DNA of 45,101 bases from a virus, in IMG/VR virus record IMGVR_UViG_3300042908_000860, positions 1 to 45,101 of that record; one strand, 5' to 3'. Each line of letters begins with the position of its first letter. Position 1 is the first letter of the stretch. The notes under the pieces were generated by a model. It was not told the DNA's origin, ran no database searches, and was given only the letters and a program-made list of their open reading frames with translations. Shown piece after piece: positions 28,809 to 43,205 of this stretch. The position numbers were made by a program, and so were the translations under genes.

Positions 28809-28825
28809 CCTCAGGGGCGGGAAGT

Positions 28826-28902
28826 GTGACGGATTGTTGCGTGGCGGTTCCCAATTGAGTAACGGGTGCTCTATGGTGAGGGGACAGCGGGGGAAGCCCT
28901 GC
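28826..28902 (+). promoter_or_regulatory. Conserved phage promoter module, copy P1
   Basis: Element A GTGACGGATTGTTGCG (28826-28841), element B GTAACGGGTGCTCTATGGT (28859-28877, 33 bp after A), -10-like TATGGT, then the leader hairpin GCGGGG-GAAG-CCCTGC (28887-28902) followed by TTTT. A C-rich leader leads to ATG 28929. No -35 hexamer at standard spacing. Confidence 0.75.
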
Positions 28903-28928
28903 TTTTCACCCCATCCCCAACGGCAGCC

Positions 28929-29222
28929 ATGACCACCTGCTTCTCTCACGGACTCGACTACAACCGCGCTACCGCTTATGAGGTGGCCGTAGAAATCAAC
29001 GGGGCGACTGTGGTCGCTGGATTCACCCAGCGCAAAACAAAGTCTTCTCTGTTAAGGGTTGCCATGGATAACGCAAAGATTCGTGAAATGATGCTTGCCG
29101 CCATCCCTGCCGACGACGCCAGCTCTCCTGCCTACAGCCGCACCAACGGTTGGCAGTTAAGCAGCGCCAACCGAATCTTCTTTACTGGAGGCACAGCAAA
29201 GAATCCCATTCTTTTTGCCTGA
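28929..29222 (+). CDS. 97-residue cassette protein, unknown
   Basis: ATG 28929 is placed by the conserved leader of promoter P1. The product begins MTTCFSHGLDYNRATAYE, has an Ala-Tyr-Glu-Val-Ala-Val-Glu-Ile-Asn-Gly strand pair, Phe-Thr-Gln-Arg-Lys-Thr-Lys, then a helix Leu-Leu-Arg-Val-Ala-Met-Asp-Asn-Ala-Lys and a beta-rich end. It has lower GC than flanking DNA and ends GCC-TGA-CCCC like two other cassettes. First gene transcribed out of the origin region; probably an early takeover or regulatory protein. No family recognised. Confidence 0.65.
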   Translation: MTTCFSHGLDYNRATAYEVAVEINGATVVAGFTQRKTKSSLLRVAMDNAKIREMMLAAIPADDASSPAYSRTNGWQLSSANRIFFTGGTAKNPILFA

Positions 29223-29254
29223 CCCCCGCCAGCCGGGAGCGCATCTCGGCGGTT
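29223..29254 (+). other. Cassette trailer hairpin
   Basis: Directly after the stop: CCCCCGCCAGCCGGGAG and CGCATCTCGGCGG can fold. The similarly placed trailer after the 36631 gene (from 36853) has the related CCGGCCCGCCGGGAGCCGAT. The two genes they follow are unrelated, so the trailer looks like a cassette boundary element. Confidence 0.4.
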
Positions 29255-29273
29255 CACCTATCCTCTGATCACA

Positions 29274-29438
29274 ATGAAAACCTTTAACAGTTTCCTACTT
29301 AATTCCATGGGTGTGCTTCTTGTCACAACCGCCGCCTTTGCAACTTTTAACCGTTCGCCTGAGGTGGACAGGCTTGTAGGAAACCTCACTCTTTCAGGTA
29401 TTGGGCTTCTTTTGGTTCGCATTAATACAGACGACTGA
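29274..29438 (+). CDS. 54-residue small membrane protein
   Basis: ATG 29274 to TGA 29436-29438. Two hydrophobic segments, about residues 6-24 (Phe/Leu/Val/Ala with Thr-Thr-Ala-Ala-Phe) and 37-49 (Leu-Thr-Leu-Ser-Gly-Ile-Gly-Leu-Leu-Leu-Val), separated by Arg-Ser-Pro-Glu-Val-Asp-Arg. AT-rich for this genome. Ends before a bidirectional terminator. Small two-helix early membrane proteins in phages often act on superinfection or membrane physiology; the function here is unknown. Confidence 0.55.
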   Translation: MKTFNSFLLNSMGVLLVTTAAFATFNRSPEVDRLVGNLTLSGIGLLLVRINTDD

Positions 29439-29460
29439 TCTCCACCAGCTCCCGATAGCG

Positions 29461-29496
29461 AAAGCCCCCCAGCCTGACGACTGGGGGGCTTTCTTG
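29461..29496. terminator. Bidirectional terminator between convergent genes
   Basis: AAAGCCCCCCAG (29461-29472), 8-nt loop, CTGGGGGGCTTT (29481-29492), then TTCTTG-type tail at 29490-29496 on the plus strand; on the minus strand the stem also ends in TTT. It separates the small plus-strand gene from the convergent primase gene that stops at 29547. Confidence 0.8.
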
Positions 29497-29546
29497 TGGA
29501 TGTAACCGAGAATGCCAGTTCGGTGTACGTGGTGGAGTGTAGCCGC

Positions 29547-32174
29547 TCAATCCCCCGGCGGGATCCACTCGACCGTCTTCCCGTTGCGCCGGACGATGCC
29601 GCATCCCTTGGTGGTGGCCACCACCTCCAGCAGCCAACGGCGCACCTCAGGGGCGGGGCATTGGCGGGCGGGGAGGCACCAGCTGCGGACGGTCTTCTGT
29701 GGCACCGGCTGGGAGCCGTGCTGCTGCCGCCAGGTCTTGCCGCGATCGAGGAGGCGCTGGATTGCGCCAGCGGTGGAGCTGCGGACGGGCGCCAGGAGCT
29801 TCTGGCGTTCGGTGGCGAACAGTGCCGCCAGGGCGATGGCGTCCCGCAGGGTGGAGAGGGGGATGGGTGTGGCGAGGGTGAGGCCTGCGGATGCCTGGCG
29901 GATGGCGTGGAGCACCAGCGCGAGACGCAGGGTGACGCCCCGCTGCTTGGACAGGTACTGACGATCAGCGCCATCGGTGGCCGCGGCCTGCAGTTCGGTC
30001 AGCCGGTCAACCCATGCGGCCCAGGTGGTGAGGGCATCGCTGTCGAGCGCGACGACGGGCGGCCGGTTGGTTTCCTCGTTGCGTGGTGGCAGCTGAGCGG
30101 CCTGAGCGTCGATGGCCCGGTAGAGGTTGCCGAGGACCGGCGCGAGATCGGTGGTTGAGCTGCGGTAGTGGTAGGCCCAGTCGCCGAGGTCATACCAGAG
30201 GAATCGGCCCCAGAGGCCATCATTGTCAGCACAGCCGTTGTTGTTGCTGGCGTCCGCTTTCCACAGGCCTGCGAGCATGTCCGGCTGCAGGTTGCCGAAG
30301 AGGCTGACGCACGGGTTGGGGACGAAAACCGAATCCCTACCGACTCGATCGGTCTTCAATGCGGAGCCTGGGTAGAGCGACAACCACTTCGGGCGGTCGG
30401 ACCGGTGAGCGGAGCGGGTGAGCTGCTGGAACCAGCCGGTCAGTTCATCGTGGTAGCTGAGGAGGCCCGGGCTAGCGCCGGCAGAGAGGATGATCTCCAG
30501 CTGCTCGATGGTGGTGTCTGAGATCAGCAGGTGGCGGGGCTGTGGCTGCGGGTTGGCAGCCAGGTAGTCGGCCACGGCATCGGCTCCACTACCGCCTGAT
30601 TCGGAGGCGGCCGCCTTGGCGGTGCGCTGCGCCTCGGCGAGCCCCGCCTTCCAGGTAGCGAGGGCATCAGCGTGCCGCTTCCGTTCGCGGGCCTGCCAGG
30701 GCGTGAGGGCGCCGATGGTGCAGGGCGTGGCGGTAGGGGATTTCCCGCCGCCGGGTTCAGCGACGTTGACGCCCCAGAGGATGGCGGGTTCAGTCCAGCC
30801 GTTGCCGGGTTCGGCTGCCACCTGGACCCGATCGCCGAGGATCGATGCGGCAGTGCAGAGGATGGGCAGCAGGAAGCCGCGGGGTGGTAGCTGCTGCTCC
30901 TCGGCGTAGCGGGTGATGGTGTTGGCGATGCCAGTTGGGAGGACGTTGGGGATGGTGGCGAGATCAGCCGCGGCCGAGAGGTCGCGGAGATCAGCGATCG
31001 CTGCGGCGAGCTCGGCGGCTGCGTCTTCATCGTCGAGCTCCCCACCAGCTGCGGCAGTGGCGTGATGGCCGTTGCCGTTGCCGTTGGTGGTGTGCGGATC
31101 GGAGGGGATGAAGGGATCGCCTGAGAGCGGCGGGGTGGGGCGGGGCGCCTTGGGCACGTCATGCCGGGAGACGTCCACCCGGGCGGCTTTGCATTGGGCG
31201 ATGAAGGAACCGGGGTCGAACTGCTCGAACGCCCAGCGCTCCACCCCCTCGAAGGTGTCGGCCGCCTGTGGGTGGTAGCGGGAAGCGAGGGCGATGGCGT
31301 CAGCCTTGCCCATGCCGATCAGCTCCAGGCAGCGGGTGAGGCCACAGACGAGCTTGAGGGCTTCATCCCGCTGGCCGTTGTTGGCGACGATGGTCGGGTA
31401 GGCGGCTACCAGGCGTTCGAGCTCGGCGTAGGAGCGGGGTTCGCTGGCGCTGCTGGTGCGCGCTGGTGCTGCGGGTGGAGCAGCGGGCGGGGGCGGCGGG
31501 GGGAGCTGGGGAAGGCCTGCCTCGAACTCCTCGGCGGCGTAGATGGCGGCCGGGTTGGAGGAGATGAGGCGCGCCCGATGGGGCCCGTACTGACCGCCAA
31601 GGCTGGTGCCGTCAGGCGCGAGGTCCTGGTGCCGGTAGATGTAGCTGGATCCGGCGAGCCGCATCAGCCGCGACGGATTGCGGCAGGTGGGGTCGGAATC
31701 GCAGAACCGGATCAGCCGGGCGGTGAGTGCCCTCCACCTGCTCGGATCGATGGGTTCGCGCAGGCGCCAGTAGCAGTGGACCGACTTCCCGCCGGTGGCG
31801 AGCTGGGCGGTGGGTTCGGGTAGGCCGAGGGTCTGCCAGGCAGTGGTCTGCCAGGCGAGGTCTTTGTCGTCCCACTCGACGAAGAGGAACTGACAGCTGG
31901 TGACGTCGCTGTCGTTGGGCCCGCCATTGGGGAGCCAGTAGAGGCGATAGCCGCGGCGCTGGAGCTGCTCTAGCTGCTCACGGCGATGGCCGAAGGTGGG
32001 GGAGAGGTGGACCGCTCGGTCGCTGGCGGGTTCGTGCTTGGCATCCCAGTGGATGGCGCGGTAGTGGCAGGTGTTGGGCGCGACGCCAAGGGCGGCCATG
32101 AATGAGACGGCGGCTTCGACGTCGAAGCGCGTGGCGGGCCCGATGTCAGCGACGGGCGCCGTCGAGAGGGTCAT
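29547..32174 (-). CDS. Primase-helicase: AEP-like N-terminus plus DUF3987-like ATPase
   Basis: An 875-residue protein. Residues about 20-215 resemble a primase of the archaeo-eukaryotic type: Gln-Phe-Leu-Phe-Val-Glu-Trp-Asp-Asp (about 95-103, acidic metal site) and Thr-Gly-Gly-Lys-Ser-Val-His-Cys-Tyr (about 127-135, the sxH motif). A Pro-rich linker (220-250) and helical region precede the ATPase part, with Walker A Ala-Glu-Pro-Gly-Gly-Gly-Lys-Ser (about 472-479) and Tyr-His-Asp-Glu-Leu-Thr-Gly-Trp (Walker B-like). This fusion is known in phage and plasmid replication proteins. It lies on the minus strand while the surrounding replication genes are on plus, and shares its start region with the helicase. 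Confidence 0.8.
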   Translation of the reverse strand: MTLSTAPVADIGPATRFDVEAAVSFMAALGVAPNTCHYRAIHWDAKHEPASDRAVHLSPTFGHRREQLEQLQRRGYRLYWLPNGGPNDSDVTSCQFLFVEWDDKDLAWQTTAWQTLGLPEPTAQLATGGKSVHCYWRLREPIDPSRWRALTARLIRFCDSDPTCRNPSRLMRLAGSSYIYRHQDLAPDGTSLGGQYGPHRARLISSNPAAIYAAEEFEAGLPQLPPPPPPAAPPAAPARTSSASEPRSYAELERLVAAYPTIVANNGQRDEALKLVCGLTRCLELIGMGKADAIALASRYHPQAADTFEGVERWAFEQFDPGSFIAQCKAARVDVSRHDVPKAPRPTPPLSGDPFIPSDPHTTNGNGNGHHATAAAGGELDDEDAAAELAAAIADLRDLSAAADLATIPNVLPTGIANTITRYAEEQQLPPRGFLLPILCTAASILGDRVQVAAEPGNGWTEPAILWGVNVAEPGGGKSPTATPCTIGALTPWQARERKRHADALATWKAGLAEAQRTAKAAASESGGSGADAVADYLAANPQPQPRHLLISDTTIEQLEIILSAGASPGLLSYHDELTGWFQQLTRSAHRSDRPKWLSLYPGSALKTDRVGRDSVFVPNPCVSLFGNLQPDMLAGLWKADASNNNGCADNDGLWGRFLWYDLGDWAYHYRSSTTDLAPVLGNLYRAIDAQAAQLPPRNEETNRPPVVALDSDALTTWAAWVDRLTELQAAATDGADRQYLSKQRGVTLRLALVLHAIRQASAGLTLATPIPLSTLRDAIALAALFATERQKLLAPVRSSTAGAIQRLLDRGKTWRQQHGSQPVPQKTVRSWCLPARQCPAPEVRRWLLEVVATTKGCGIVRRNGKTVEWIPPGD

Positions 32175-32207
32175 GCGAAGGGGACGGGTGATCGCACCCT
32201 ACCATCC

Positions 32208-32223
32208 TGTGGTGAGTTGTGGT
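32208..32223. promoter_or_regulatory. TGTGGT-N4-TGTGGT direct repeat in primase/helicase divergent region
   Basis: TGTGGT (32208-32213), GAGT, TGTGGT (32218-32223): a 10-bp-spaced direct repeat, one helical turn. The same arrangement occurs at 33731-33746 in front of the ribbon-helix-helix gene. Ten-bp-spaced direct repeats are typical operators of such regulators. Position between the divergent primase (starts 32174) and helicase (starts 32253) would let one repressor control both. Confidence 0.5.
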
Positions 32224-32252
32224 GTATGGTCTGGTGGTGTTGCTGCTGTGGT

Positions 32253-33728
32253 GTGTTTGAGCTGCGTCCGTACCAGACGGCCCTTGCGACGGCAGGGGAT
32301 GAGGCGATGCTGCGCGGGCAGCGGCCTTGCCTGGTGGCGCCGACGGGTGCAGGCAAGACCGTGATCCTGGCGGAGCTGACGCGCCGAGCGCTGGCCCGTG
32401 GTGAGCAGGTGCTGGTGCTGTGCCATCGGGAGGAGATCTTGGGGCAGATCGTCGCCAGCCTGCGGCGCCACCTGGGCCCATCGGTGGTGGTGGCGATGGT
32501 GACCGCTGGCAGCCGTCCGCGGATGGATCGGCGCGTGATCGTGGGCATGGTGCCGACGCTGAACCACCGCCTGGCAGCGCTGGCGAAGCTGGCCGGCTGC
32601 ACGGTGCTGGCGGACGAGTGCCATCACGCTCCAAGCCCCAGCTGGCGGCGGGTGATGACGGCCGCGGCCCCGGCGCGCATGGCGGGGCTGACGGCCACAC
32701 CGGTGCGACCCGACGGGAAGGGCCTGGGTGATGAAGGTGTGTTCGATGTGCTGGTGAATGGCCCGGAAGCGGCGGAGCTGATGCGCGACGGGAAGTTGTG
32801 CCGCTACCGGTTGTTCGCGGCGCCGCATCGGATCAGCTCGAAGGGTGTCAAGCGCCGCGGCGGGGAGTTTATCTCCTCGGAGGTCGAGGGCAGGGTGGTG
32901 GAGATCAACGGCTACATCGTGCGCGACTGGCTGGCCGCCAATCCGCAACGGCTCCCCACCATCTGCGTGGCGGTGAGCGTGACCCATGCGCACGAGGTGG
33001 CGGAGCTCTACCGGGCGGCGGGCATCAGTGCTGAGGCAGTGGATGGGAAGACCGCGAAGGAGGAAAGGAGGCGGATCTTCGAGCGGTTCCGGCAGGGCCG
33101 GTTGACGGTGCTGGTGGCGTGCGCGGTGGTGGATGAGGGGCTGGACGTACCGGAGGCGACGGTGCTGCAGGTGCTGCGGCTGATCGGCAGCCTGCGGCTG
33201 TGGCGGCAGCTGATCGGCCGTGTGCTGCGGCCTGCGGACGGGAAGGAGCACGCGATCATCCTTGACCACACCGACAACTGGCAGCGGCTGCCGCCGCCGG
33301 ATGCGGACATGGACTGGCGGCTGAATGCAGAGCCACAGCAGCCCCGCAAGCGGCTGCGGGTGGTGATGGATGAGGAGACGGGAGAGGTGCGGACCGATGG
33401 CGAGCTGCCGCCTGTGGAGGTGGAGGAGAACGGGACGCGGCTGGTGGAGATCTCACCAGCTGAGCTGGCGCGGTCGCATCCGATCGTGGCGCGGCGGCTG
33501 CTGAATGAGAGGTGTAGGGCGGAGATCGTGCAGGGCGGCACCGATCTGCGGCGATGGCTGAACTGCCTGGATGTGCTGGAGGATGAGACGCTGCGGGCGT
33601 TGGGTGCGGCGCCATCGCTGCGGCTGCCGTCGGGCTGGGCAGAGGGCCAGATGATGCTGCGGATGCTGCTGAGCACGGAACAGCGCCTTGCCGCGACGAA
33701 GCGCCTACAACGGCACTGGATGGGGTAG
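32253..33728 (+). CDS. DECH-box superfamily 2 helicase
   Basis: A 491-residue protein. The start is taken at GTG 32253 (MFELRPYQ, motif Q region); an ATG at 32226 would add a Trp/Cys-rich leader that looks non-coding. Motifs in order: Ala-Pro-Thr-Gly-Ala-Gly-Lys-Thr (Walker A, about 29-36), Asp-Glu-Cys-His (121-124), Gly-Leu-Thr-Ala-Thr-Pro (motif III), Ala-Cys-Ala-Val-Val-Asp-Glu-Gly-Leu-Asp (motif V) and Gln-Leu-Ile-Gly-Arg-Val-Leu-Arg (motif VI). Close to the RecQ/UvsW-like and SSL2-type phage helicases. Roles in replication, recombination or branch migration are inferred. Confidence 0.9.
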   Translation: MFELRPYQTALATAGDEAMLRGQRPCLVAPTGAGKTVILAELTRRALARGEQVLVLCHREEILGQIVASLRRHLGPSVVVAMVTAGSRPRMDRRVIVGMVPTLNHRLAALAKLAGCTVLADECHHAPSPSWRRVMTAAAPARMAGLTATPVRPDGKGLGDEGVFDVLVNGPEAAELMRDGKLCRYRLFAAPHRISSKGVKRRGGEFISSEVEGRVVEINGYIVRDWLAANPQRLPTICVAVSVTHAHEVAELYRAAGISAEAVDGKTAKEERRRIFERFRQGRLTVLVACAVVDEGLDVPEATVLQVLRLIGSLRLWRQLIGRVLRPADGKEHAIILDHTDNWQRLPPPDADMDWRLNAEPQQPRKRLRVVMDEETGEVRTDGELPPVEVEENGTRLVEISPAELARSHPIVARRLLNERCRAEIVQGGTDLRRWLNCLDVLEDETLRALGAAPSLRLPSGWAEGQMMLRMLLSTEQRLAATKRLQRHWMG

Positions 33729-33730
33729 GA

Positions 33731-33746
33731 TGTGGTCTGTTGTGGT
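33731..33746 (+). promoter_or_regulatory. TGTGGT-N4-TGTGGT direct repeat before the RHH gene
   Basis: TGTGGT (33731-33736), CTGT, TGTGGT (33741-33746), ending 10 bases before ATG 33757. Identical in arrangement to the repeat at 32208. Suggests autoregulation by the downstream ribbon-helix-helix protein. Confidence 0.5.
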
Positions 33747-33756
33747 CTCCCTTCCA

Positions 33757-33954
33757 ATGGCGTCGCCCCCCGCGACCAATGCTTTGCAGCCGTCGTTCTC
33801 GCGGAATGTTCGGTTTCCGATCGCGATGTGGGAGCGCCTGCGGATGCTGGCTGCAGCAGATCGCCGATCCATCAACTGGCTGGTGGTGGACCTTCTACGG
33901 GAAGGCCTCGACCGGCGGGATGGAGAGGCCACCCAACAATCCCCAACCCCTTAG
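33757..33954 (+). CDS. Ribbon-helix-helix (Arc/MetJ-like) DNA-binding protein
   Basis: A 65-residue protein from ATG 33757. It has the RHH pattern: a short strand (Phe-Ser-Arg-Asn-Val-Arg-Phe-Pro) whose alternate residues would contact the major groove, helix 1 (Met-Trp-Glu-Arg-Leu-Arg-Met-Leu-Ala-Ala-Ala-Asp), turn Arg-Arg-Ser-Ile-Asn, helix 2 (Trp-Leu-Val-Val-Asp-Leu-Leu-Arg-Glu-Gly-Leu). Dimeric repressor is the expected form. Candidate regulator of the TGTGGT direct repeats here and at 32208. Sits between helicase and ERF recombinase genes. Confidence 0.75.
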   Translation: MASPPATNALQPSFSRNVRFPIAMWERLRMLAAADRRSINWLVVDLLREGLDRRDGEATQQSPTP

Positions 33955-33960
33955 GCATTC

Positions 33961-34710
33961 ATGCCCACCCCCCAAGCAACCCCGCAGGCGGCGCCCTCGC
34001 CACCGCCTGCCTCATGGACGATGCCGGCATTCTGCGGGCCTGACCCTGGCACCGTCGCCGCGCTCGACAAGGCGATCTCACTGGCCCGGCCCAACTTCGG
34101 GCCGTTGACGAAAAACGCCGAAGCCGACATCAGGGGCAAAGGTGTGAAACACGGCTACCTGAACCTCCCCGGTCTTTACGAGGCGGTGGTGGTGGCCCTG
34201 ATGACCCAGGGTGTTTCTGTCAGCTCCTCGATCCAGCAAGTGGCCGGAGGTTTTTTGATCGTGACCCAGCTGCGGGACATGAACGGCGGCGGCTGGCGGC
34301 TGAGCGAGTTTCCGGTGATCAACTTGTCGGGCGGATCGAGTGCCGTCGCTGCAGCGGCCACCATCGCCCCCAGGATCAACCTGCAGCTGTTGCTGGGCAT
34401 CTGCGGTCAGGATGATGAAGTCGAGGCGCCGGCGGCCGCGGTGGCGCCATGGAATGCCCCGGCGGCGGCGGGTGGCAGCTGGGAGGTGCCGGCGATGCCG
34501 GCGGCCCCGGCTGCTGGTGGCCAGCCGTTCGCCGGTGGGTATGACCCGACGCAGGGCCAGGCCCACCAGGCGCCACAGGCGCCCCAGGCGATGCCTGCAC
34601 AGGCCATGCCTGCCCCGGGTGTCCCTGCCCAGGGGATGCCCTACCCGCAGCATCCGCAGCAGGCGGCACCACAGCCACAACAACCCCAAACCCCCTACGC
34701 CAACTTCTGA
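33961..34710 (+). CDS. ERF-family single-strand annealing recombinase
   Basis: A 249-residue protein, 6 bases after the RHH gene. Residues about 32-150 match the ERF fold: Leu-Asp-Lys-Ala-Ile-Ser-Leu-Ala-Arg-Pro, Tyr-Leu-Asn-Leu-Pro-Gly-Leu-Tyr-Glu-Ala-Val, Leu-Met-Thr-Gln-Gly-Val-Ser-Val-Ser, and a Leu-Leu-Leu-Gly-Ile-Cys-Gly-Gln-Asp-Asp-Glu close (the family's LLGIxxEDDD). The C-terminal 90 residues are Ala/Pro/Gln-rich and probably disordered. Anneals homologous strands with the exonuclease at 35267 for replication, circularisation and repair. Confidence 0.75.
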   Translation: MPTPQATPQAAPSPPPASWTMPAFCGPDPGTVAALDKAISLARPNFGPLTKNAEADIRGKGVKHGYLNLPGLYEAVVVALMTQGVSVSSSIQQVAGGFLIVTQLRDMNGGGWRLSEFPVINLSGGSSAVAAAATIAPRINLQLLLGICGQDDEVEAPAAAVAPWNAPAAAGGSWEVPAMPAAPAAGGQPFAGGYDPTQGQAHQAPQAPQAMPAQAMPAPGVPAQGMPYPQHPQQAAPQPQQPQTPYANF

Positions 34711-34712
34711 CC

Positions 34713-35267
34713 ATGAAATCTGCACTCATTTCCCTCTGGAACGCACAACCCCCCAGGAACGAAGACCCCAACAAATCCCCGACGGTCTTCACGGCCGAGA
34801 TCTGCATCCCTTGGTCGCTGGTGTGGGAGCTGTATCAGTACATGCAGGCTCAACAAGGCCACAAGGTCAACCGCGAGGGAGAGCCTTACTTCTCCCTGCG
34901 CACGTGGATCAAGCGCAGCAGAGCGAACGGTGAGAATAATTCAGCCATTCTCTATGGCTACATCCAGTCGCTGAGTGAGGCTGCGGCCTACGAGGCCAAC
35001 AAGGCGCAACAGGGCGGCGGCGGCTTCGGTGGCGGCCAGTTCGGCCAGCAGCCAGCAGCACCGGCCCAGACAGCACCGGCGGGCTACCCGCCCCAGGGCC
35101 AGCCCCCCGCGGGCTACCCGCCTGCCGGCTACCCGCCTGCCGCGGCCCCTGCTGGCTACCCGCCCGCCGGTGGTGTGCCCATGGCGCCACCCATGGCGCC
35201 CCCTGCTGCTCCTCCTGCACCACCTCAGACTTGGGGCCCGCAGGGTGGTGGCGGCTGGTCGCAGTAG
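34713..35267 (+). CDS. Recombination-module protein with Pro/Gly-rich tail, SSB-like candidate
   Basis: A 184-residue protein between the annealase and the exonuclease. The first 95 residues form a compact domain (Thr-Ala-Glu-Ile-Cys-Ile-Pro-Trp-Ser-Leu-Val-Trp, then Ser-Leu-Arg-Thr-Trp-Ile-Lys-Arg-Ser, Ser-Ala-Ile-Leu-Tyr-Gly-Tyr-Ile-Gln-Ser). The rest is low complexity with several Gly-Tyr-Pro-Pro units, in the manner of the flexible tail of single-strand binding proteins, but without a terminal acidic DDDIPF peptide. No OB-fold signature can be proved by eye. Confidence 0.6.
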   Translation: MKSALISLWNAQPPRNEDPNKSPTVFTAEICIPWSLVWELYQYMQAQQGHKVNREGEPYFSLRTWIKRSRANGENNSAILYGYIQSLSEAAAYEANKAQQGGGGFGGGQFGQQPAAPAQTAPAGYPPQGQPPAGYPPAGYPPAAAPAGYPPAGGVPMAPPMAPPAAPPAPPQTWGPQGGGGWSQ

Positions 35268-36203: not shown

Positions 36204-36536
36204 ATGATGACTCGACAACTACAGGATCCTGATCTGCCGGCAAGGTTCCCGATGGAGCTGGCGGCGGCACGTGATGAGCATGGCGAGGCGCTGGCGCTGG
36301 TGCGCTGCAACGACGGCTCGCTGTGGCTGGACACTGGCAACGCCACGGTGCCATGGCGCCGTCTGCCGGCGATCCCGGAGCCGACGGATGAAGAGCTGGA
36401 TGCCTTGGAGGCGCCGGAGAGGAAGGAGGAGCGGCTGGCTGACGCGCAGGCTGAGCGGCTTCTGGCGAACGGCTGGCGGCCCACTGCGGCAACCATCTCG
36501 CAGTACCTGCCCCCGCGGTATCGCCGCCTTCCGTAA
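36204..36536 (+). CDS. Small acidic protein, unknown
   Basis: A 110-residue protein from ATG 36204 (second Met next). Contains Leu-Val-Arg-Cys-Asn-Asp-Gly-Ser-Leu-Trp-Leu-Asp, a charged Glu/Asp-Ala-Leu-Glu-Ala-Pro-Glu-Arg helix and a C-terminal Ser-Gln-Tyr-Leu-Pro-Pro-Arg-Tyr. Its TAA is part of the A element of promoter P2. Unrecognised. Confidence 0.55.
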   Translation: MMTRQLQDPDLPARFPMELAAARDEHGEALALVRCNDGSLWLDTGNATVPWRRLPAIPEPTDEELDALEAPERKEERLADAQAERLLANGWRPTAATISQYLPPRYRRLP

Positions 36537-36606
36537 CGGATTGCGACAGCCCCCCTCGCAATGGCGTAACGGATGCTCTATGCTCTGTTCAGCGGGGGAG
36601 GCCCCG
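36533..36606 (+). promoter_or_regulatory. Conserved phage promoter module, copy P2
   Basis: Element A GTAACGGATTGCGACAG (36533, overlapping the upstream stop), element B GTAACGGATGCTCTATGCT (36566-36584), 33 bp after A as in P1 and P5, -10-like TATGCT. The leader hairpin GCGGGG-GAGG-CCCCGC lies at 36592-36607, then a C-rich leader to ATG 36631. Confidence 0.75.
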
Positions 36607-36630
36607 CGGTTCTTTCCCCAGCAACCAGCC

Positions 36631-36852
36631 ATGTTCCCTTCTTTTCAGTCCGTCACAGATTGGACCTTTGAGCGCACTGATGATCACTTCCGCCCTGTTC
36701 CTGTCATGCCTGCCGAAGAAAGGAAGGCGTGGATTGAATTGAACCACATGGCGGCAATGCAGCCGATCACCAGCGAGCAGCGCCGCATACTGCAGGCGCT
36801 CAATCGGAAGATCAGCTACCGCGCCCAGCACGAGAAGCTGGCCATCGCCTGA
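36631..36852 (+). CDS. 73-residue cassette protein, unknown
   Basis: The start ATG 36631 is fixed by the P2 leader (hairpin, then about 23 nt). The product begins MFPSFQSVTDWTFERTDD, continues with an acidic Pro-Ala-Glu-Glu-Arg-Lys-Ala-Trp-Ile-Glu-Leu-Asn-His-Met helix and a C-terminal Ile-Leu-Gln-Ala-Leu-Asn-Arg-Lys helix, possibly an HTH-like pair. Ends GCC-TGA-CCCC followed by a CCGGCCCGCCGGG trailer, like the cassette at 28929. Not recognised. Confidence 0.65.
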   Translation: MFPSFQSVTDWTFERTDDHFRPVPVMPAEERKAWIELNHMAAMQPITSEQRRILQALNRKISYRAQHEKLAIA

Positions 36853-36920
36853 CCCCCCGGCCCGCCGGGAGCCGATCCCGGCAACATCCATCCCAATCCC
36901 CTCAATCCCCACCCTTTTCA

Positions 36921-37073: not shown

Positions 37074-37075
37074 CT

Positions 37076-37591
37076 ATGACCCCTTCCTCCTTCACCCGCG
37101 CCTACGTGGCGCATGATCTGGGCGGTGAGCTCCACCGCCTCGCCCAACGTGCCGCCGTGGTTGCGGCTGCCCTGTACGTGACCGGTCTGGCGGTTGGTGT
37201 GGTGATCCACTGGGCCAACGACTGGCTATCAGGCGATCGCCGGCCGTGGCCGGTTGTCTGGGGGGCTGCAGCGGCGCCCCGGCCGCGGCTTCGTGATCGC
37301 TACACCAGGCTGGCCATAAAGACGGAGGTAACCATGGGCACACCGTCGCCAGTTTACGTTCTGAAGCCCAACCCAATCGTGGCGCCGGCCGCGGCCGAAT
37401 CAACCTTTGATAAAACGTCCTTCGAGTACGGACGAGCTTTCGCACGAATGCAGTTGTGCGATCCAGCCGTGACAACAGAGGTTCTGGAGCAAATCGCAGT
37501 TTGCAAAGGTATTAAATACGTGGGAGGCAAGCACCTGTATTTAGCGGAAAGAGAAGATCTTATTGAAGCTATTTTGGACACCATTAAATGA
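37076..37591 (+). CDS. Protein with TM segment, unknown
   Basis: A 171-residue protein from ATG 37076, two bases after the previous stop. One hydrophobic helix (about residues 27-46) lies before an Arg/Pro-rich segment; the C-terminal 80 residues (Glu-Tyr-Gly-Arg-Ala-Phe-Ala-Arg-Met, Ala-Val-Cys-Lys-Gly-Ile-Lys-Tyr) form a soluble domain. It overlaps the next gene by ATGA. A fusion of two small frames by read-through is possible: base composition changes near 37,330 from GC-rich to AT-richer. Confidence 0.5.
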   Translation: MTPSSFTRAYVAHDLGGELHRLAQRAAVVAAALYVTGLAVGVVIHWANDWLSGDRRPWPVVWGAAAAPRPRLRDRYTRLAIKTEVTMGTPSPVYVLKPNPIVAPAAAESTFDKTSFEYGRAFARMQLCDPAVTTEVLEQIAVCKGIKYVGGKHLYLAEREDLIEAILDTIK

Positions 37592-37767
37592 CCCACCCCG
37601 TAACAATCCAAACGCGGCGACAGGCGTATCTGGAATGGCTCTACCGCCAGGCGGGCCGCGATGACCCCCGCCATCCTGCCCACGGGCTCTACACGGGGCT
37701 GCTACAGCTCCGCTGTGCAGAGCTGATTGACTTTGACCAACGTGTAGCCCTTGGAGATGTTCAATGA
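37588..37767 (+). CDS. 59-residue small protein
   Basis: ATG 37588 to TGA 37765-37767, coupled to both neighbours by ATGA overlaps. Basic-aromatic N-terminus (Arg-Arg-Gln-Ala-Tyr-Leu-Glu-Trp-Leu-Tyr-Arg-Gln) then Gly-Leu-Tyr-Thr-Gly-Leu-Leu-Gln-Leu and an acidic-hydrophobic C-terminus. Gene order and coupling argue it is translated. Unrecognised. Confidence 0.6.
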   Translation: MTHPVTIQTRRQAYLEWLYRQAGRDDPRHPAHGLYTGLLQLRCAELIDFDQRVALGDVQ

Positions 37768-37976
37768 CCGAAGACGAAAAGAAAGCCCTGCTGCTTGCGG
37801 GGAAGATGGCTGCCGAAGTGCGTTTGCTTGTTGGTGGTGGTGACATGTTTGGTTGGCACCACGAGCCTTGCACAATAGAAAACCTTGGGCCAAGGTTAGG
37901 CGCTATCAGGAAAGCCCTTAATGCCTACGACGATTGCATCCTGCAAATGATCCGGAGCCAAAATGCCCCTCGCTGA
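37764..37976 (+). CDS. 70-residue small protein
   Basis: ATG 37764 has GGAG about 9 nt upstream. Begins with an acidic/Lys-rich helix (Glu-Asp-Glu-Lys-Lys-Ala-Leu-Leu-Leu-Ala), then Leu-Leu-Val-Gly-Gly-Gly, a His-His-Glu-Pro-Cys segment and a C-terminal Arg-Lys-Ala-Leu-Asn-Ala-Tyr helix. The His/Cys cluster could bind metal. It overlaps the start of the deaminase by 14 bases. Unknown. Confidence 0.6.
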   Translation: MTEDEKKALLLAGKMAAEVRLLVGGGDMFGWHHEPCTIENLGPRLGAIRKALNAYDDCILQMIRSQNAPR

Positions 37977-38502
37977 CTTCCAAATCACCAACCTTGCCCT
38001 CGCCGGCATGGTGGAACCGTTTGAACCTGAGCTGGTAAATCCTGCCAGCCTGGATGTGCGGCTTGGTGATTCAATCCTGATCGAACAGGCCTCTTCCCCC
38101 GAAATGGTCCCGTACCCGTTTGACAAGCACAGCCAGGAGAATCCCTACCTGATGGTGCCGGGACAGTTCCTGCTGGCCCACAGCCAGCCGTTTTTCAACC
38201 TGCCGCGTGGGATCTGCGCGGACTTCTGCCTCAAGTCGTCCCGTGGCCGTGAGGGCCTTGACCGGACGTTGCGAGACATCGGGATTGATCACCTCAATGC
38301 CGGATTCTGCGACCCAGGGTGGACCGGATCGGTGCTCACCCTGGAACTGAAAAACGTTCGGCAACTGCACGCGGTGCCGATCTGGCCCGGCATGCGGATC
38401 GGTCAGTTGAAGTTTCAACAGATGGATGCCTTGCCGCGGCACAGCTACGAGGAAGTCGGCCGGTACAACGGCGACGCCACCGTTCAGCAATCGAGGGGCT
38501 GA
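37963..38502 (+). CDS. dcd: dCTP deaminase / dUTPase-like enzyme
   Basis: A 179-residue protein of the trimeric dCTP deaminase-dUTPase family. Ser-Leu-Asp-Val-Arg-Leu-Gly-Asp at about 29-36 matches the family opening; Leu-Lys-Ser-Ser-Arg-Gly-Arg (about 91-97) the SSxAR motif; Asn-Ala-Gly-Phe-Cys-Asp-Pro-Gly-Trp-Thr-Gly ... Leu-Glu-Leu (about 112-128) contains the catalytic Glu; Pro-Gly-Met-Arg-Ile-Gly-Gln-Leu follows. Makes dUMP/dUTP precursors for dTTP synthesis in the infected cell. Whether it deaminates or only hydrolyses dUTP cannot be told by eye. Confidence 0.8.
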   Translation: MPLADFQITNLALAGMVEPFEPELVNPASLDVRLGDSILIEQASSPEMVPYPFDKHSQENPYLMVPGQFLLAHSQPFFNLPRGICADFCLKSSRGREGLDRTLRDIGIDHLNAGFCDPGWTGSVLTLELKNVRQLHAVPIWPGMRIGQLKFQQMDALPRHSYEEVGRYNGDATVQQSRG

Positions 38503-38504
38503 GC

Positions 38505-38612
38505 ATGATCGCTTCATGGTTGCTGGCGTTTGCGGTATCGAGCGCCGCGGGCTGGGTGCTGGGAAAGTTGCTGCCGCCGATGGTGGATGAAGAGGATCCC
38601 GATGGCTGGTGA
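38505..38612 (+). CDS. 35-residue small membrane protein
   Basis: ATG 38505 to TGA, beginning MIASWLLAFAVSSAAGW. One hydrophobic helix (residues 3-26) and an acidic tail (Asp-Glu-Glu-Asp-Pro-Asp-Gly-Trp). It overlaps the next gene's start. Typical small phage membrane peptide; function unknown. Confidence 0.5.
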   Translation: MIASWLLAFAVSSAAGWVLGKLLPPMVDEEDPDGW

Positions 38613-39195
38613 ACGGTGGACAGCGGAGGAGCAGGAATGCTTCGAGTCGCTGTGCGGCGACATGCCTTGGCCGATGGTTGTTGCCTCCATGCACCACGAG
38701 GCATCGCGTTACGGCTGGCCGCGGCGAGAAGAATCGGCATTGAAGCGCAAGGCGGAATGTGATGGCATCCAGGTGTCGAGCGTCGGTGAATGGGTGCGCC
38801 CAAAGCTGATTGCCGACACGCTGAAGATTAGCTCTAACACTGTGGTGCGATGGATCAAGGCGAACAGATTGCCAGCGCGACGGTTCTACAACGTGCCGTA
38901 CGTGTCTCGGAAATCACTACGTGAGTTTGCCAATCGTGAACCGCATGTATTCGCCGGGTTGCCGGTGCCGGATCTGGTGCAGCTGTTGAGTGATCAACGG
39001 TTGGCGGAGAAGCTGACGGATTACCCGGTACGAATGCGGCGATTCTGCTCGCCGGTGGTGTGCGTGACGACTGGCCGAAGGTTTGAGAGTATCGCTGCAG
39101 CGGCAAAGGACGCAGGCGTGACGAAGCAGCGATTACGAGATGCGATCCGCGAACGGCAACGCGCTGGCGGGAAGCTGTGGCGCCGCGAGACGTAA
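38602..39195 (+). CDS. DNA-binding protein: Myb-like, HTH and NUMOD1-like modules
   Basis: A 197-residue protein from ATG 38602 (GAGG upstream). Residues 1-50 resemble a Myb/SANT helix set (Arg-Trp-Thr-Ala-Glu-Glu-Gln-Glu-Cys). Residues about 60-110 contain an excisionase/MerR-like HTH (Ile-Ala-Asp-Thr-Leu-Lys-Ile-Ser-Ser-Asn-Thr-Val-Val-Arg-Trp-Ile-Lys). The last 45 residues match NUMOD1: Cys-Val-Thr-Thr-Gly-Arg-Arg-Phe-Glu-Ser-Ile-Ala-Ala-Ala ... Gly-Gly-Lys-Leu-Trp-Arg. NUMOD1 usually accompanies homing endonucleases; no nuclease domain is present, so this may be a regulator or a degraded or domesticated homing protein. TAA lies in promoter P3's A element. Confidence 0.7.
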   Translation: MAGERWTAEEQECFESLCGDMPWPMVVASMHHEASRYGWPRREESALKRKAECDGIQVSSVGEWVRPKLIADTLKISSNTVVRWIKANRLPARRFYNVPYVSRKSLREFANREPHVFAGLPVPDLVQLLSDQRLAEKLTDYPVRMRRFCSPVVCVTTGRRFESIAAAAKDAGVTKQRLRDAIRERQRAGGKLWRRET

Positions 39196-39241
39196 CGAAT
39201 CACCCCACCCGCCGGCCATCCCGTAACGGATGCTCTATACT
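39192..39241 (+). promoter_or_regulatory. Conserved phage promoter module, copy P3
   Basis: Element A GTAACGAAT (39192, overlapping the upstream stop), element B GTAACGGATGCTCTATACT (39223-39241), 31 bp apart, -10 TATACT, the best -10 in the set. No clean leader hairpin here; the leader runs GGCAGCGGTTCCCC, then C-rich to ATG 39275. Confidence 0.75.
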
Positions 39242-39274
39242 GGCAGCGGTTCCCCAATCCCCAACGACAAACCC

Positions 39275-40327
39275 ATGGAACAGTTCAAGGCTGAAGAAGA
39301 AGACTGGCAGCGAGTTGAGGCGGACGCAATCACCCACCCCATCCCCAGCACGATATGCGAACTCCGCGACCGCGTGGCGGCGCTGGAGGCGGCTCCCGAT
39401 CGCGTCTTTGTGCGGAATCAGACTGGCGAGTACCTGAGAGCGGGCACGCCTGTCTATGCAGATCCTCGCAACCGGCCTGTCAGCTACTCGGTAGGCGAGG
39501 CGCGACCGATGCTGGAATGCGGCAAGGATCATGTTGTGCCCGCCCCGGCGGCTGCCCCGGTTGTGGCGGTGCCGTCGGATCAGGAGCTGTGGGAGGTGCA
39601 GTTGAAGGTAAAGAGTCAATCAAGGCCGCACATTGGCTGGCAGGTATGGTCTCCAGAATCCGAACCTCTGATCGCCGCCCACCGCGCCCTATACGACCAC
39701 GGCTACCAGCAGGGCCTAGCGGCCGGCCGCGCCGAGCAGCCGGCGACGACGGAGCTACCCACCGACTACGACTACGACGCGCCCCAGACCCTGCACACCG
39801 TTGCCCTGGGCATGGTGGATACCCTGCGTCGCAGGATCGGAGTAACTGATCATATCTGCGACACCATCGAGCGGGCGATCCGTGAGCCCGCCCCTTGCCC
39901 GCACGTCCGATCATCTGGCGACAGCAACTGGTGCGCGCTGGCGGAGCAGCAGGCAGCTACCGAGGAATCCTCGGCAACTCAATCGGATCCCGCTATGACC
40001 GCGCTGGAGCTGCCAAGGGACTGGTATCCCGACTTTGCCGACTGGCTTAAGCGGCAAATGCCAGAAGGCACGGTAATAGGTGATCCGTTGTGGTGGGCTT
40101 CGTGCATTGCGGCTTGGCTCATAGCAAAGGCCACCCTAGGGCCCAAGTCCAGCCCGTCCCCGGCGGGGGATGCGGGGCTGGTGGAGGAGGTGGTGCGTGC
40201 TATGCGTGCCGCGCCACTGGGCTACCAACCCGAAGCCCGCGCCGCAATCCTCAGAGCGGCCGGTTGGCTGCATAGAGAGGGCCACCTCAGCGCTGCCGCT
40301 TTGCTTGAGCGGGAAGCCAACCGATGA
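39275..40327 (+). CDS. Large early protein of unknown function
   Basis: A 350-residue protein whose start ATG 39275 is set by the P3 leader. An acidic coiled N-terminus (Met-Glu-Gln-Phe-Lys-Ala-Glu-Glu-Glu-Asp, Leu-Arg-Asp-Arg-Val-Ala-Ala-Leu-Glu) is followed by a domain with Gly-Trp-Gln-Val-Trp-Ser-Pro-Glu, an Ala-Gly-Arg linker, and a C-terminal region with Trp-Trp-Ala-Ser-Cys-Ile-Ala-Ala-Trp-Leu and a Leu-Glu-Arg-Glu-Ala helix. It may combine several small domains typical of phage regulatory proteins. No family recognised; stop overlaps the sulfotransferase-like gene by ATGA. Confidence 0.6.
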   Translation: MEQFKAEEEDWQRVEADAITHPIPSTICELRDRVAALEAAPDRVFVRNQTGEYLRAGTPVYADPRNRPVSYSVGEARPMLECGKDHVVPAPAAAPVVAVPSDQELWEVQLKVKSQSRPHIGWQVWSPESEPLIAAHRALYDHGYQQGLAAGRAEQPATTELPTDYDYDAPQTLHTVALGMVDTLRRRIGVTDHICDTIERAIREPAPCPHVRSSGDSNWCALAEQQAATEESSATQSDPAMTALELPRDWYPDFADWLKRQMPEGTVIGDPLWWASCIAAWLIAKATLGPKSSPSPAGDAGLVEEVVRAMRAAPLGYQPEARAAILRAAGWLHREGHLSAAALLEREANR

Positions 40328-40908
40328 TCATTCACCCGTCTTTCATCTACGTCCACTTCCCCAAGACCGGCGGGATGAAGATGCTTGAACTACTCCTTAC
40401 CATCCCCGGCGCCGAAAGGGTTGCCAGCCATCACCACGACAGCATCGAAGCCCGCATCGAGCGCGACCCCAGCTTTCGGGTTGGCGATCGGACGGTGGTC
40501 GTCGGGTTCCGCCGGCTGCCCAGCTGGCTGCACAGCCGCTACAGCTTCGAGCGGCAACGGTCGCCGCACCTGCCCCACGATCCACAGAGGCTTGCCGAGG
40601 GCTGGTTCCTGGAGGAGAACGGACAAGAAGGGTTCGCGGACTTCTACGCCATGAACTGGGCCAGCGAATGGCTGGTGAACAATCACCGGGTTCTATTCGT
40701 AAGGCAGGAACATTTCGCGGCCGACTTCATGGCCGCCTTTGGGGAGCACCTGCCGGAGGGTTGGCAGGGTGATCTATCCACCCGCACCAACCGGAGCGAG
40801 CATGACGACGAGGCAGCGGCTGTGATTCGGGAGAACGTGGATCAGATCTACGAATCCTGTAAATACTGGACCAGCCTTGAAGAAAACCTTTATCGGAGTC
40901 CACGATGA
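40324..40908 (+). CDS. Sulfotransferase-like enzyme
   Basis: A 194-residue protein. Residues 9-20 (Tyr-Val-His-Phe-Pro-Lys-Thr-Gly-Gly) are the 5'-phosphosulfate-binding motif of PAPS-dependent sulfotransferases, and about 57-72 (Val-Val-Val-Gly-Phe-Arg-Arg ... Trp-Leu-His-Ser-Arg-Tyr) matches the 3'-phosphate-binding Arg/Ser segment. Shorter than cellular sulfotransferases (typically 250-300), perhaps a minimal version. The acceptor is unknown; phage or host glycans, lipids or exopolysaccharide are possible. In an early operon with the upstream P3 gene. Confidence 0.7.
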   Translation: MIIHPSFIYVHFPKTGGMKMLELLLTIPGAERVASHHHDSIEARIERDPSFRVGDRTVVVGFRRLPSWLHSRYSFERQRSPHLPHDPQRLAEGWFLEENGQEGFADFYAMNWASEWLVNNHRVLFVRQEHFAADFMAAFGEHLPEGWQGDLSTRTNRSEHDDEAAAVIRENVDQIYESCKYWTSLEENLYRSPR

Positions 40909-41114
40909 CCACCATTGTCAACGGAGAACGCCGCTACGGCGTGTGGGCCGGTTGCCAGAAGGGGTTTCCCGAGATTCCCGAAAGGTGCATCGAGGAGATC
41001 TGGCCTCACGGCAGAGGTGGATGGACCCCTTACCAGTGCAGCCGCAAGCGCGGCCACGGCCCAGATGGGCTCTACTGCAAGCAACACGCCAAACAACACG
41101 AGGCCACGAAATGA
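40905..41114 (+). CDS. Small cysteine/histidine protein
   Basis: A 69-residue protein, ATG 40905 preceded by GGAG and coupled by ATGA. Cys residues at about 17, 28, 45 and 58 together with His at 34, 51 and 61 suggest a small zinc-binding fold. Basic overall; ends in a Gln-His-Glu-Ala helix. Nothing more specific can be recognised. Confidence 0.6.
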   Translation: MTTIVNGERRYGVWAGCQKGFPEIPERCIEEIWPHGRGGWTPYQCSRKRGHGPDGLYCKQHAKQHEATK

Positions 41115-41419
41115 CCACCCCGCCGCTTTCCGCCGCCGCTCAGGCGGTGCTGGATGCCGCTGAACAGGTTCCAGTGCCCCATGGGCAGGCTTTCCCGCTG
41201 ATTCGCCTAGAGATCGCCGCCGCCATCTGCGCCCTGGTGGAGCAGGTGGCACCAGAAACGCTGCCAGCGGGTCTTTGCGATCCAGAGCTACAGAGCTTTG
41301 TCGAGGTAATCAACCGCACGTTTCGGACCAAACTGCAGTCCATCGCCGCCGAGCTGGACGGCGGGGCGGGCCAGCACACCACCCAACCCACGGAGACAGC
41401 TAGTGATTCTGAGCGTTAG
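41111..41419 (+). CDS. 102-residue protein of unknown function
   Basis: Start ATG 41111 overlaps the previous TGA (ATGA); the frame extends upstream only inside that gene. An Ala-rich helix, a hydrophobic Ile-Ala-Ala-Ala-Ile-Cys-Ala-Leu helix and a C-terminal Ile-Asn-Arg-Thr-Phe-Arg-Thr-Lys-Leu helix, then a Thr/Gln-rich end. Probably all-helical. Unrecognised. Confidence 0.55.
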   Translation: MTTPPLSAAAQAVLDAAEQVPVPHGQAFPLIRLEIAAAICALVEQVAPETLPAGLCDPELQSFVEVINRTFRTKLQSIAAELDGGAGQHTTQPTETASDSER

Positions 41420-41585
41420 GCACATCGGCAAATATGCCGAGGTCTTGATTTCTTCCGGTTCAGGAACAATCGTAACTTCACTGCTCGACAAGGCCGAACA
41501 GAAACAGTTGGCCGATGCCTTCCGAGGTGTCGCCGACGAACTAGACACCACCCACCCCACGGAGACCCCCGATGAGCACGCCTGA
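41403..41585 (+). CDS. 60-residue protein, unknown
   Basis: GTG 41403 with GGAG upstream, overlapping the previous gene. Compact beta-helix pattern: Val-Arg-His-Ile-Gly-Lys-Tyr-Ala-Glu-Val-Leu-Ile, Thr-Ile-Val-Thr-Ser-Leu-Leu, then Lys-Gln-Leu-Ala-Asp-Ala-Phe. Overlaps the next gene by 14 bases. Unknown. Confidence 0.55.
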   Translation: MILSVRHIGKYAEVLISSGSGTIVTSLLDKAEQKQLADAFRGVADELDTTHPTETPDEHA

Positions 41586-42408
41586 CCCCACCCCCACGCC
41601 GCTGCCGGCCGCGCCCGACTGGAGGGCGTTGCTTGAGGAAATGACCCAATCCCTGTCCCTTCTCGACAAACCGCCGCATGATCTCCTGGCCAGAGCACAG
41701 GCGTTTCTGGCCGCCACCACGGACCGCACCCGCTTGGTGATCTCACTGGCCACCCCGCCGGCCCCATCCCCGGAGCCCCGTGGCTGCCCGACGCCTGGGG
41801 CCTGTAGCTGCCCCACAGCGCCAATTGTGCCGCCGGAGCTGATTCGGGCGCTGGAGCTGGCGGAGGAAGCACTGGCGGACATCGGCGACGCAGAGCGCGA
41901 GCCGGGTGATGACATCGCGTGGGCCGAGCGTCGCGCCGCCCAAGACCTGCCCCGCGTCCGCCATGCGCTGCAGACCTGGCGCGATCACGCCACTCCGCCG
42001 GCCGCCACCCGCGAGGCGGGGCCGCTGCCGCAGGCGGGGGCGGAGATCAGTGATAAGGAGATCGATCAACTGGAAGCGTCTATGTGGGAGCCGACTGGCG
42101 TACACGAGCAGGGGCAATTAGAGCAGATCTTCAACTATCGAGCCTTCGCCCGCGCCGTGCTTGCCCGCTGGGGCGGCGCAGTGGTGCAGCCGGTGCCGGT
42201 GAGTGAGCGGCCATGGAAGCGGCCTGGCTGGTGCGATGCGGAGGGCCGGTGCTGGTGTTTTGCAGTGGGAAGAAACTGGCGCTCCGGTTACTCTGCCGAT
42301 CGCGCGTGGATGCTTCGACAGCCTGAACCGGGCGTGTACGACACCCACTCGCTGCCCCACTGGGCGATGCCGGTGCCCGCCGCCGCCGCGGGGGAGGTGC
42401 AGCCATGA
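41572..42408 (+). CDS. 278-residue protein, C-terminus DUF551-like
   Basis: ATG 41572 with GGAG upstream. Pro/Leu-rich N-terminus with a Cys-Pro-Thr-Pro-Gly-Ala-Cys-Ser-Cys cluster (about 72-80), a central helical region, and a C-terminal Pro-Gly-Trp-Cys ... Trp-Cys-Phe and final Leu-Pro-His-Trp-Ala-Met-Pro-Val-Pro. The last element matches how DUF551-type phage proteins end (THWxPLPxPP). Family call weak. Tightly coupled to the downstream gene. Confidence 0.5.
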   Translation: MSTPDPTPTPLPAAPDWRALLEEMTQSLSLLDKPPHDLLARAQAFLAATTDRTRLVISLATPPAPSPEPRGCPTPGACSCPTAPIVPPELIRALELAEEALADIGDAEREPGDDIAWAERRAAQDLPRVRHALQTWRDHATPPAATREAGPLPQAGAEISDKEIDQLEASMWEPTGVHEQGQLEQIFNYRAFARAVLARWGGAVVQPVPVSERPWKRPGWCDAEGRCWCFAVGRNWRSGYSADRAWMLRQPEPGVYDTHSLPHWAMPVPAAAAGEVQP

Positions 42409-42581
42409 CCCCCAAGGAAATCGCCGCCGCCATGGTCGCCGCCTACATGGACCGCTGCGACCGCATCGGCCCGCTTGAGGACCCGGAGCCTGAGTGCCTC
42501 GCCGCTGCCCTGCGTGCCCTGCCGCGCCTGCCCATCCTGGACCTGGCGGCCGTGATTGATGCGCTGGAGGCGATGGGATGA
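42405..42581 (+). CDS. 58-residue helical protein
   Basis: ATG 42405 preceded by GGAGG; overlaps both neighbours by ATGA. Helical, with Ala-Ala-Ala-Met-Val-Ala-Ala-Tyr-Met-Asp, Cys-Leu-Ala-Ala-Ala-Leu-Arg-Ala-Leu and Val-Ile-Asp-Ala-Leu-Glu. Unknown function; probably real because of its coupling and strong ribosome-binding site. Confidence 0.6.
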   Translation: MTPKEIAAAMVAAYMDRCDRIGPLEDPEPECLAAALRALPRLPILDLAAVIDALEAMG

Positions 42582-42808
42582 TCCCCGCCCCCGTCTCCTG
42601 GTTCGCCATGGGTCTTGTGTTTGGGATGCTGCTATGCGGCTATCCCTGGCATCCCCGGTTCAGCCGCTACCAGCCCCGCCGCCGCCGATCCGTGCCGCCT
42701 TCCCCGCCGCGTGATCCACAGCCCCGCCCAAGCGGCACTGGCCCCGTGCTGCCCGTCCTTCCCGCCCCTCCTCGACTGCGCCCCAGGCGCCGCCAGACAT
42801 GGCGTTGA
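42578..42808 (+). CDS. Small membrane protein with basic Pro-rich tail
   Basis: A 76-residue protein, ATG 42578 with GGAGG upstream. One hydrophobic segment (about residues 8-21: Phe-Ala-Met-Gly-Leu-Val-Phe-Gly-Met-Leu-Leu) followed by an Arg/Pro-rich cytoplasmic tail. The tail may be translated GC-rich filler. Unknown. Confidence 0.45.
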   Translation: MIPAPVSWFAMGLVFGMLLCGYPWHPRFSRYQPRRRRSVPPSPPRDPQPRPSGTGPVLPVLPAPPRLRPRRRQTWR

Positions 42809-43038
42809 CGCCTGCCGAACGCACCCGCCTGTATCGGCTCCGCAAGGCGGGGGAGCTCCCACCAGCCCCCGGCCGGTGGTGCGCGACGCCCGGTTGCCCG
42901 AACCGCAGCCATGGCAACCACGGGCCCCTGTGCTCGCGGTGCTGGCTGAAGTTCACACCTGAGGGCAGAGAACAGCGGGCCGAGTGGGCCCGGCAGCAAC
43001 GCCGCCGGCAACGTGATCGCGATGGCCCCGGCCGATAG
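42799..43038 (+). CDS. Small zinc-ribbon-like protein
   Basis: A 79-residue protein overlapping the previous gene by 10 bases. Basic N-terminal helix (Thr-Arg-Leu-Tyr-Arg-Leu-Arg-Lys), then Trp-Cys-Ala-Thr-Pro-Gly-Cys and Leu-Cys-Ser-Arg-Cys with His residues between (CxxxxC-x14-CxxC), a zinc-finger arrangement, and a highly basic C-terminus. A DNA-binding or nuclease-accessory role is plausible. Confidence 0.6.
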   Translation: MALTPAERTRLYRLRKAGELPPAPGRWCATPGCPNRSHGNHGPLCSRCWLKFTPEGREQRAEWARQQRRRQRDRDGPGR

Positions 43039-43160
43039 ACTCCCAGCGGGTGTCCGGTCAGCCCCTAACCGCAAGGCGGGGCGTCGCCGCTGGCTGTTGG
43101 GGTCATCGGAGGGAACCGAAGCCGGGCACCCCCCTACGACCCACAACCGGCCATCTGTTC

Positions 43161-43205
43161 ACAACGGATGGCCTACCATCAACATGCGGGGAGGTCCCGC
43201 ATTCC
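43161..43205 (+). promoter_or_regulatory. Divergent promoter module, copy P4
   Basis: ACAACGGATGGCCTACCAT (43161-43179) aligns without gaps to element B of the other copies at 12 of 19 positions. It is followed by a hairpin GCGGG-GAGGT-CCCGC (43186-43200) and the C-rich leader to TTG 43220. No clear A element at 31-33 bp upstream, so this copy is weaker. Confidence 0.5.

Follow-up and report, generated by a model that had tools for sequence, protein, structure and literature searches.

A repeated promoter module framing exchanged small ORFs in a cyanosiphovirus, and its likeness to host HLR1-type promoters

An IMG/VR virus record of 45,101 bases (IMGVR_UViG_3300042908_000860, taken as a whole and termed the window below) carries on both strands several copies of a composite element with features of a promoter and no recognizable -35. 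What reads such an element, and what is it repeated for? The answer favored here, by a small margin over even chances, is that the module is a promoter of host-activated type to which the phage lineage has added an element of its own, and that it frames small ORFs which are exchanged while the frame stays.

Copies of the module

The downstream part, element B (GTAACGGATGCTCTATACT), is present in the window, with up to three mismatches allowed, only at 26265-26283 on the minus strand (locus 1) and, on the plus strand, at 28859-28877, 36566-36584 and 39223-39241 (loci 2 to 4), where shuffled sequences lead one to expect 0.01. As a sequence-only reading of the window had it, B ends in a -10-like hexamer, here of the form TAN3T (TACGAT at 26265-26270, TATGGT at 28872-28877, TATGCT at 36579-36584 and TATACT at 39236-39241), and the GTRACGGAT of an upstream element A precedes it by 33 bp in three copies (26316 on the minus strand, 28826 and 36533) and by 31 bp in the copy at 39223, whose A has one mismatch to that sequence. 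Its claim that a -35 is lacking also stands: a sigma-70 -35/-10 pair was found at none of the copies, and a TTGACA-like hexamer lies 16-18 nt upstream of the -10 at none of them. A hairpin with a GAGG or GAAG loop, reported for four copies, is present at 26255-26240 (minus strand), 28887-28902, 36592-36607 and 43185-43201, with folding energies of -11.0 to -13.7 kcal/mol. The last of these belongs to the weak copy at 43161-43201 (ACAACGGATGGCCTACCAT), a B-like site with TACCAT and no element A, and locus 4 has no hairpin.

Virus, host and relatives

The window encodes TerL, a head protease, a tape measure protein, helicases, an Erf-like annealing protein and an exonuclease. Judged from its sequence it is a cyanosiphovirus, an S-CBS-type siphovirus. 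Its TerL shares 73-75% identity with those of the Synechococcus phages S-CBS1 and S-CBS3, which makes a GC-rich, Cyanobium-type picocyanobacterium, presumably of fresh water, the most likely host. The module is absent from S-CBS1 and S-CBS3 themselves. The motif search in related phages proposed with the sequence-only reading did find it there, in five further contigs (L017/G303, L019/G302, L063/G304, L104/G301 and L221/G327), making six module-bearing contigs with the window, mostly fragments; the 60-kb L104/G301 has several copies. A search with CTAYGATATGGGAACC matched 16 stretches, among which the only known members were G301 and L063. Exact element B had zero matches in the genome contigs searched, and none of 50,697 phage records matched a 116-bp stretch bearing the locus 3 cassette.

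The module is not host-wide. With one mismatch allowed, B gave 23 matches in 300 Cyanobiaceae genomes, no more than the reversed-pattern control, and the idea that it is a host element was rejected on this absence of enrichment; on the same ground B is assigned to the phage lineage of the window.

Separately, group 2 sigma genes are found in related cyanosiphoviruses (L101:835-1662, L102, L103, L106:20409-21299 and L107:21858-22757), and L104:8108-8215, in contig G301, holds tandem repeats of TGTGACTGTGTGGCACATGGG type.

Exchange of the framed ORFs

What the first reading overlooked is that the module serves cassettes as their 5′ frame. In relatives the promoter and leader are conserved up to the start codon, the small ORF that comes next is unrelated, and homology restarts at or after its stop codon, with a terminator or a conserved 3′ hairpin, so that the ORF is exchanged between phages and the 3′ frame kept. 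This holds for four ORFs in four contigs at locus 3, three in three at locus 1 and two in two at locus 2, and that we are dealing with a repeated promoter cassette with exchanged ORFs is close to certain.

At locus 3 the frame from element A (CGTAACGGATTGCGAC, 36532-36547) to the start codon (36532-36633) has 88-92% identity in L221, L017 (to 36608) and G301, and homology restarts at 36845-36855, at the stop codon of a 73-aa ORF (36631-36852), with a conserved 3′ hairpin (GCCGGGAGCCGATCCCGGC) at 36864-36882. The ORFs of the four contigs, of 73, 76, 102 and 60 aa, are mutually unrelated; that of L017 is phrog_9437, which occurs in rhizobial and Vibrio phages, and that of G301 has a homologue in L101-L103 without the module promoter. 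At locus 1, on the minus strand, element A (TGTGACGGATTGTTGC, 26302-26317; TGTGACGGAATGTGAC in L063 and GATGACGGATTGTGAC in G301), a B that is conserved in the same two contigs and a leader hairpin (26240-26255) precede a 44-aa ORF (26087-26221), in place of which L063 has an ORF of 84 aa and G301 one of 57 aa, all between one promoter and one intrinsic terminator (26047-26065), the conserved 3′ frame following GCCTGACCCC. (Similarity between the 44-aa and 84-aa ORFs, E = 0.02 over 31 residues, is treated as chance.) The 44-aa ORF has a weak Rho_N-like match, below cut-off, and the remaining exchanged ORFs gave no usable family match.

Locus 2 has the same A sequence (TGTGACGGATTGTTGC, 28825-28840; TGTGACAGCGTGTTAC in G301), a leader hairpin at 28887-28902, a 97-aa ORF of no family (28929-29222), for which there were no close relatives among viral contigs, a conserved 3′ hairpin (GCCGGGAGCGCATCTCGGC, 29232-29250) and, as the end of the unit, a terminator-like stem-loop at 29460-29493, read from the sequence and conserved in G301. 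There the unit is elsewhere and inverted, with about 700 bp more ahead of the 3′ hairpin. Within the window the 3′ hairpin (GCCGGGAGCNNATCYCGGC) follows only the ORFs of loci 2 and 3; it is also present in relatives, including L101-L103. At locus 4 the module, with orthologues in L019 and G301, precedes a gene of 350 aa (39275-40327), whose N terminus is conserved and which is mosaic downstream. Replacement of ORFs also occurs free of the module, as with 37764-37976, which has no homologue in G301.

Element A and host promoters

Element A extends beyond GTRACGGAT, being a 16-bp direct repeat, TGTRAC-N4-TGTRAC, with a period of 10. Over 15 sites from the window and relatives, a second TGTRAC-like half-site at offset 10 is the sole strong peak besides B (mean 4.2 of 6 versus a background of 1.9), the next, at offset 33, being B itself. 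The second half-site precedes the -10 by 35-37 nt, a spacing that persists when B is missing or displaced, and if the start is placed some 7 nt downstream of the -10, A would be at about -59 to -44. HLR1 is the box recognized by RpaB, a redox regulator of the host belonging to the OmpR family of response regulators, and A has the same format read on the other strand, with two half-sites of period 10, the second degenerate at locus 4 (CGTAACGAATCACCCC, 39191-39206). HLR1, KTTACAWW-N2-KTTACAWW, activates at positions -66 to -45 and represses at -38 to +23 (PMC13421787). The predicted position of A falls within the activating range.

A scan for HLR1 followed by 35-38 nt and TAN3T found three window sites scoring at least 12, all of them module (locus 1, for one, has 12 of 14), against 0.05 in Markov shuffles, a comparison weakened by the choice of spacing limits after the sites and psaA had been seen. 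Sites of NtcA type (GTA-N8-TAC, centered near -41.5) were found in none of the A elements analyzed, all of which are direct repeats. Elsewhere in the window, on the minus strand at 27297-27246, a related promoter has an A-type box (CATGAACAACTGCAAC) and TAGGTT at module spacing (36 nt), with GTAACGG elsewhere and not adjoining the -10; its orthologues are at L063:1536 and L235:7231. Boxes of HLR1 type 36-37 nt before TAN3T, followed by a start codon and with no B, were also seen at L101:5832-5730 (minus strand), in L103 and at L037:5320-5370.

Host psaA promoters have a comparable geometry. Upstream of this photosystem I gene, 8 of 12 host-clade genomes have TGTAAC at a distance of 36 nt from the -10, oriented as in the module; the -10 is mostly TATACT or TATGCT, after which come AGCGG and a hairpin at +1. 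The locus 3 promoter (A, 37 nt, TATGCT, 6 nt, AGCGG with the hairpin) matches this layout. In psaA the first half-site is weak (ATTGAA), and exact HLR1 is rare in these GC-rich hosts, with 6 occurrences versus 3 in controls among 34 large genomes; four of the six are upstream of one gene which, from its N-terminal sequence, we take to be an hli gene. The hli family is known to be RpaB-controlled, and host hli upstream regions contain TGTAACAGATTGTGAC. Upstream regions of psaD and phycobilisome genes had no HLR1-type promoter at threshold. Shared between the module and psaA-type promoters, then, are two TGTRAC-type half-sites, a -10 without a -35 and a 5′ hairpin starting with AGCGG, while the module differs in being viral, in its extra B, in its degenerate half-sites and in that binding is here a prediction. 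It is rather probable that A is an RpaB-type activator box.

Element B and the reading of the module

Across 12 copies the invariant positions of B are ACG, TG, CTA and the final T of the -10; that is, a single half-site-like ACG with a conserved TG-N2-CTA-N3-T surrounding the -10. The distance from A-type box to -10 is kept, with B displaced or missing, in the class of the promoter at 27297, in L101-L103 and in L037. B is not accounted for by RpaB alone, and it occupies the zone where HLR1 represses. The earlier proposal of two operators that replace a -35 survives in part: the upstream box would stand in for the -35, but A and B are probably not equivalent operators, because A alone has the HLR1/RpaB layout and the activating position, B having just its one half-site-like ACG.

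On the favored reading, both half-sites of A would be bound by an OmpR-family response regulator of the host, RpaB being the likeliest candidate, which would recruit host RNA polymerase to the TAN3T -10 without a -35. B, a lineage-specific addition beside the -10 with its half-site-like ACG and constrained spacer, may tune or gate the promoter. The transcript would begin at or just before the strong hairpin, which probably protects its 5′ end, and promoter, leader and 3′ hairpin or terminator would together frame a small ORF that the lineage swaps, presumably through recombination between frames.

An unlikely alternative, though the most probable of the rivals, is that a phage DNA-binding protein recognizes the GTRACGGAT shared by A and B, either activating or repressing the promoters as a phage regulon. 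That the 9-mer is common to A and B in the window, and B not enriched in host genomes, fits this, and there is a candidate in the HTH_17/excisionase-like protein of 38530-39195, whose gene immediately precedes the 39223 copy; this protein recurs in G302 and, with 30% identity, in G301. However, the shared 9-mer is lost in relatives (A is TGTGACAGCGTGTTAC and B GTGACGAATGACC in G301) where the period-10 half-sites persist, the B-less promoters of L101-L103 and L037 have HLR1-type boxes at module spacing, and L042 has a relative of the HTH protein but no module. Less probable again is that an alternative (group 2) sigma factor, from host or phage, reads B and the -10 together as its promoter, A being a secondary enhancer. 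Such factors are encoded by S-CBS1, S-CBS3 and L101-L103, and the conservation of B reaches right to the -10, but no sigma-70 region 2 was found in the window, B is lacking from those phages in which a sigma gene was found, and the 35-37 nt from A to the -10 are kept even without B or with B shifted. That the element is chiefly a signal for DNA recombination or RNA processing, its promoter features incidental, is very improbable, since the ORF exchange at frame borders, the 5′ and 3′ hairpins and the relocated locus 2 unit, which would suit it, are set against a fixed spacing from A to the -10, an invariant TA and final T, and hairpins at the predicted +1.

The leader hairpin

Under the favored reading of a host-activated promoter, the leader hairpin would begin at about +1 to +3 of the predicted start. 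Its stems are GCGGGG/CCCCGC (locus 3, loop GAGG), GGAGGG/CCCTCC (locus 1, GAGG), GCGGGG/CCCTGC (locus 2, GAAG) and GCGGGG/CCTCGC. Pairing is 100%, with two compensatory pairs, a modest figure from six sequences of two stem types. Stem-loops that protect the 5′ end are a known RNA feature near the transcript start, which the hairpin resembles in starting near the predicted +1, and that it acts as RNA is quite likely. Rfam gave no match. Since AGCGGGGGAGGCCCCGC on its own also hits L222 and L223, two unrelated regions, the hairpin by itself is not diagnostic of the module.

Parallels with known systems

The PeSLs of T4-type phages were reportedly described by Arbiol (2010) and Comeau (2014). According to one account, they are repeated promoter and stem-loop elements bordering exchanged genes (PMC4503421). 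The module is likewise a promoter and stem-loop repeated, at three loci, at the borders of shuffled genes, but it belongs to a siphovirus, its promoter is of cyanobacterial activator type and not a T4 early promoter, and its hairpin is a 5′ leader, a separate 3′ hairpin framing the ORF. Descent from T4-type early promoters is not indicated, the virus being an S-CBS-type siphovirus with no such promoter at the copies. Morons of lambdoid prophages are genes that sit among phage genes, each with a promoter and a terminator to itself. The locus 1 terminator (26047-26065) and locus 2 stem-loop (29460-29493) fit that description, but locus 3 has no more than a 3′ hairpin lacking a T run; unlike in morons, here it is the frame that stays and the inner ORF that changes.

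In SIRV2 a conserved early promoter, common to highly expressed host genes, precedes many unrelated small anti-defence genes (PMC11065993). One host-like promoter before many unrelated small accessory genes is what the two cases share, the module differing in having a bacterial promoter and ORFs without known anti-defence function. For T4-like cyanophages with NtcA boxes, use of a global host regulator has been proposed (PMC3037559). Such use would be common to both, though the NtcA site is a palindrome (GTA-N8-TAC) as against the direct repeat of HLR1 type. In how it works the cassette would resemble T4 PeSLs, morons or the promoters of SIRV2 anti-defence genes, as a variant of its own. Among the four papers found to mention both cyanophage and RpaB, no title or abstract was about phage promoters.

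From the SIRV2 analogy it may be guessed that the ORFs in the slots serve host take-over or counter-defence. The fuller version, in which the slots are for RpaB-driven genes of that kind and the phage reads both the light and the redox state of the host at the start of infection, is speculative and rather unlikely. If true, phage gene expression would be coupled to electron flow in photosynthesis, a point of relevance to the light dependence of cyanophage infection. The frames would offer a way to find, by sequence, small and mutually unrelated genes, probably host-directed, that homology searches miss, and the promoter would be a marker for host-interaction genes in cyanophages.

Other features of the window

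Directly upstream of the locus 2 module, and adjoining a helicase-primase gene, 28100-28810 is a likely replication origin, with four TTTTCCACA boxes at 28753-28808 (0.22 expected), an AT-rich stretch at 28290-28325 and GCGCTAC/AGCACA repeats. Near the end of the window, 43705-45099 on the plus strand encodes a vanadium bromoperoxidase-like protein (PDB 1qi9, E = 7e-20, residues 331-435) with an SGHA motif, for which no relative was found in 50,697 phage records; in the related contig L019 the same stretch has 96% identity, so that it is not a stray piece of host DNA.
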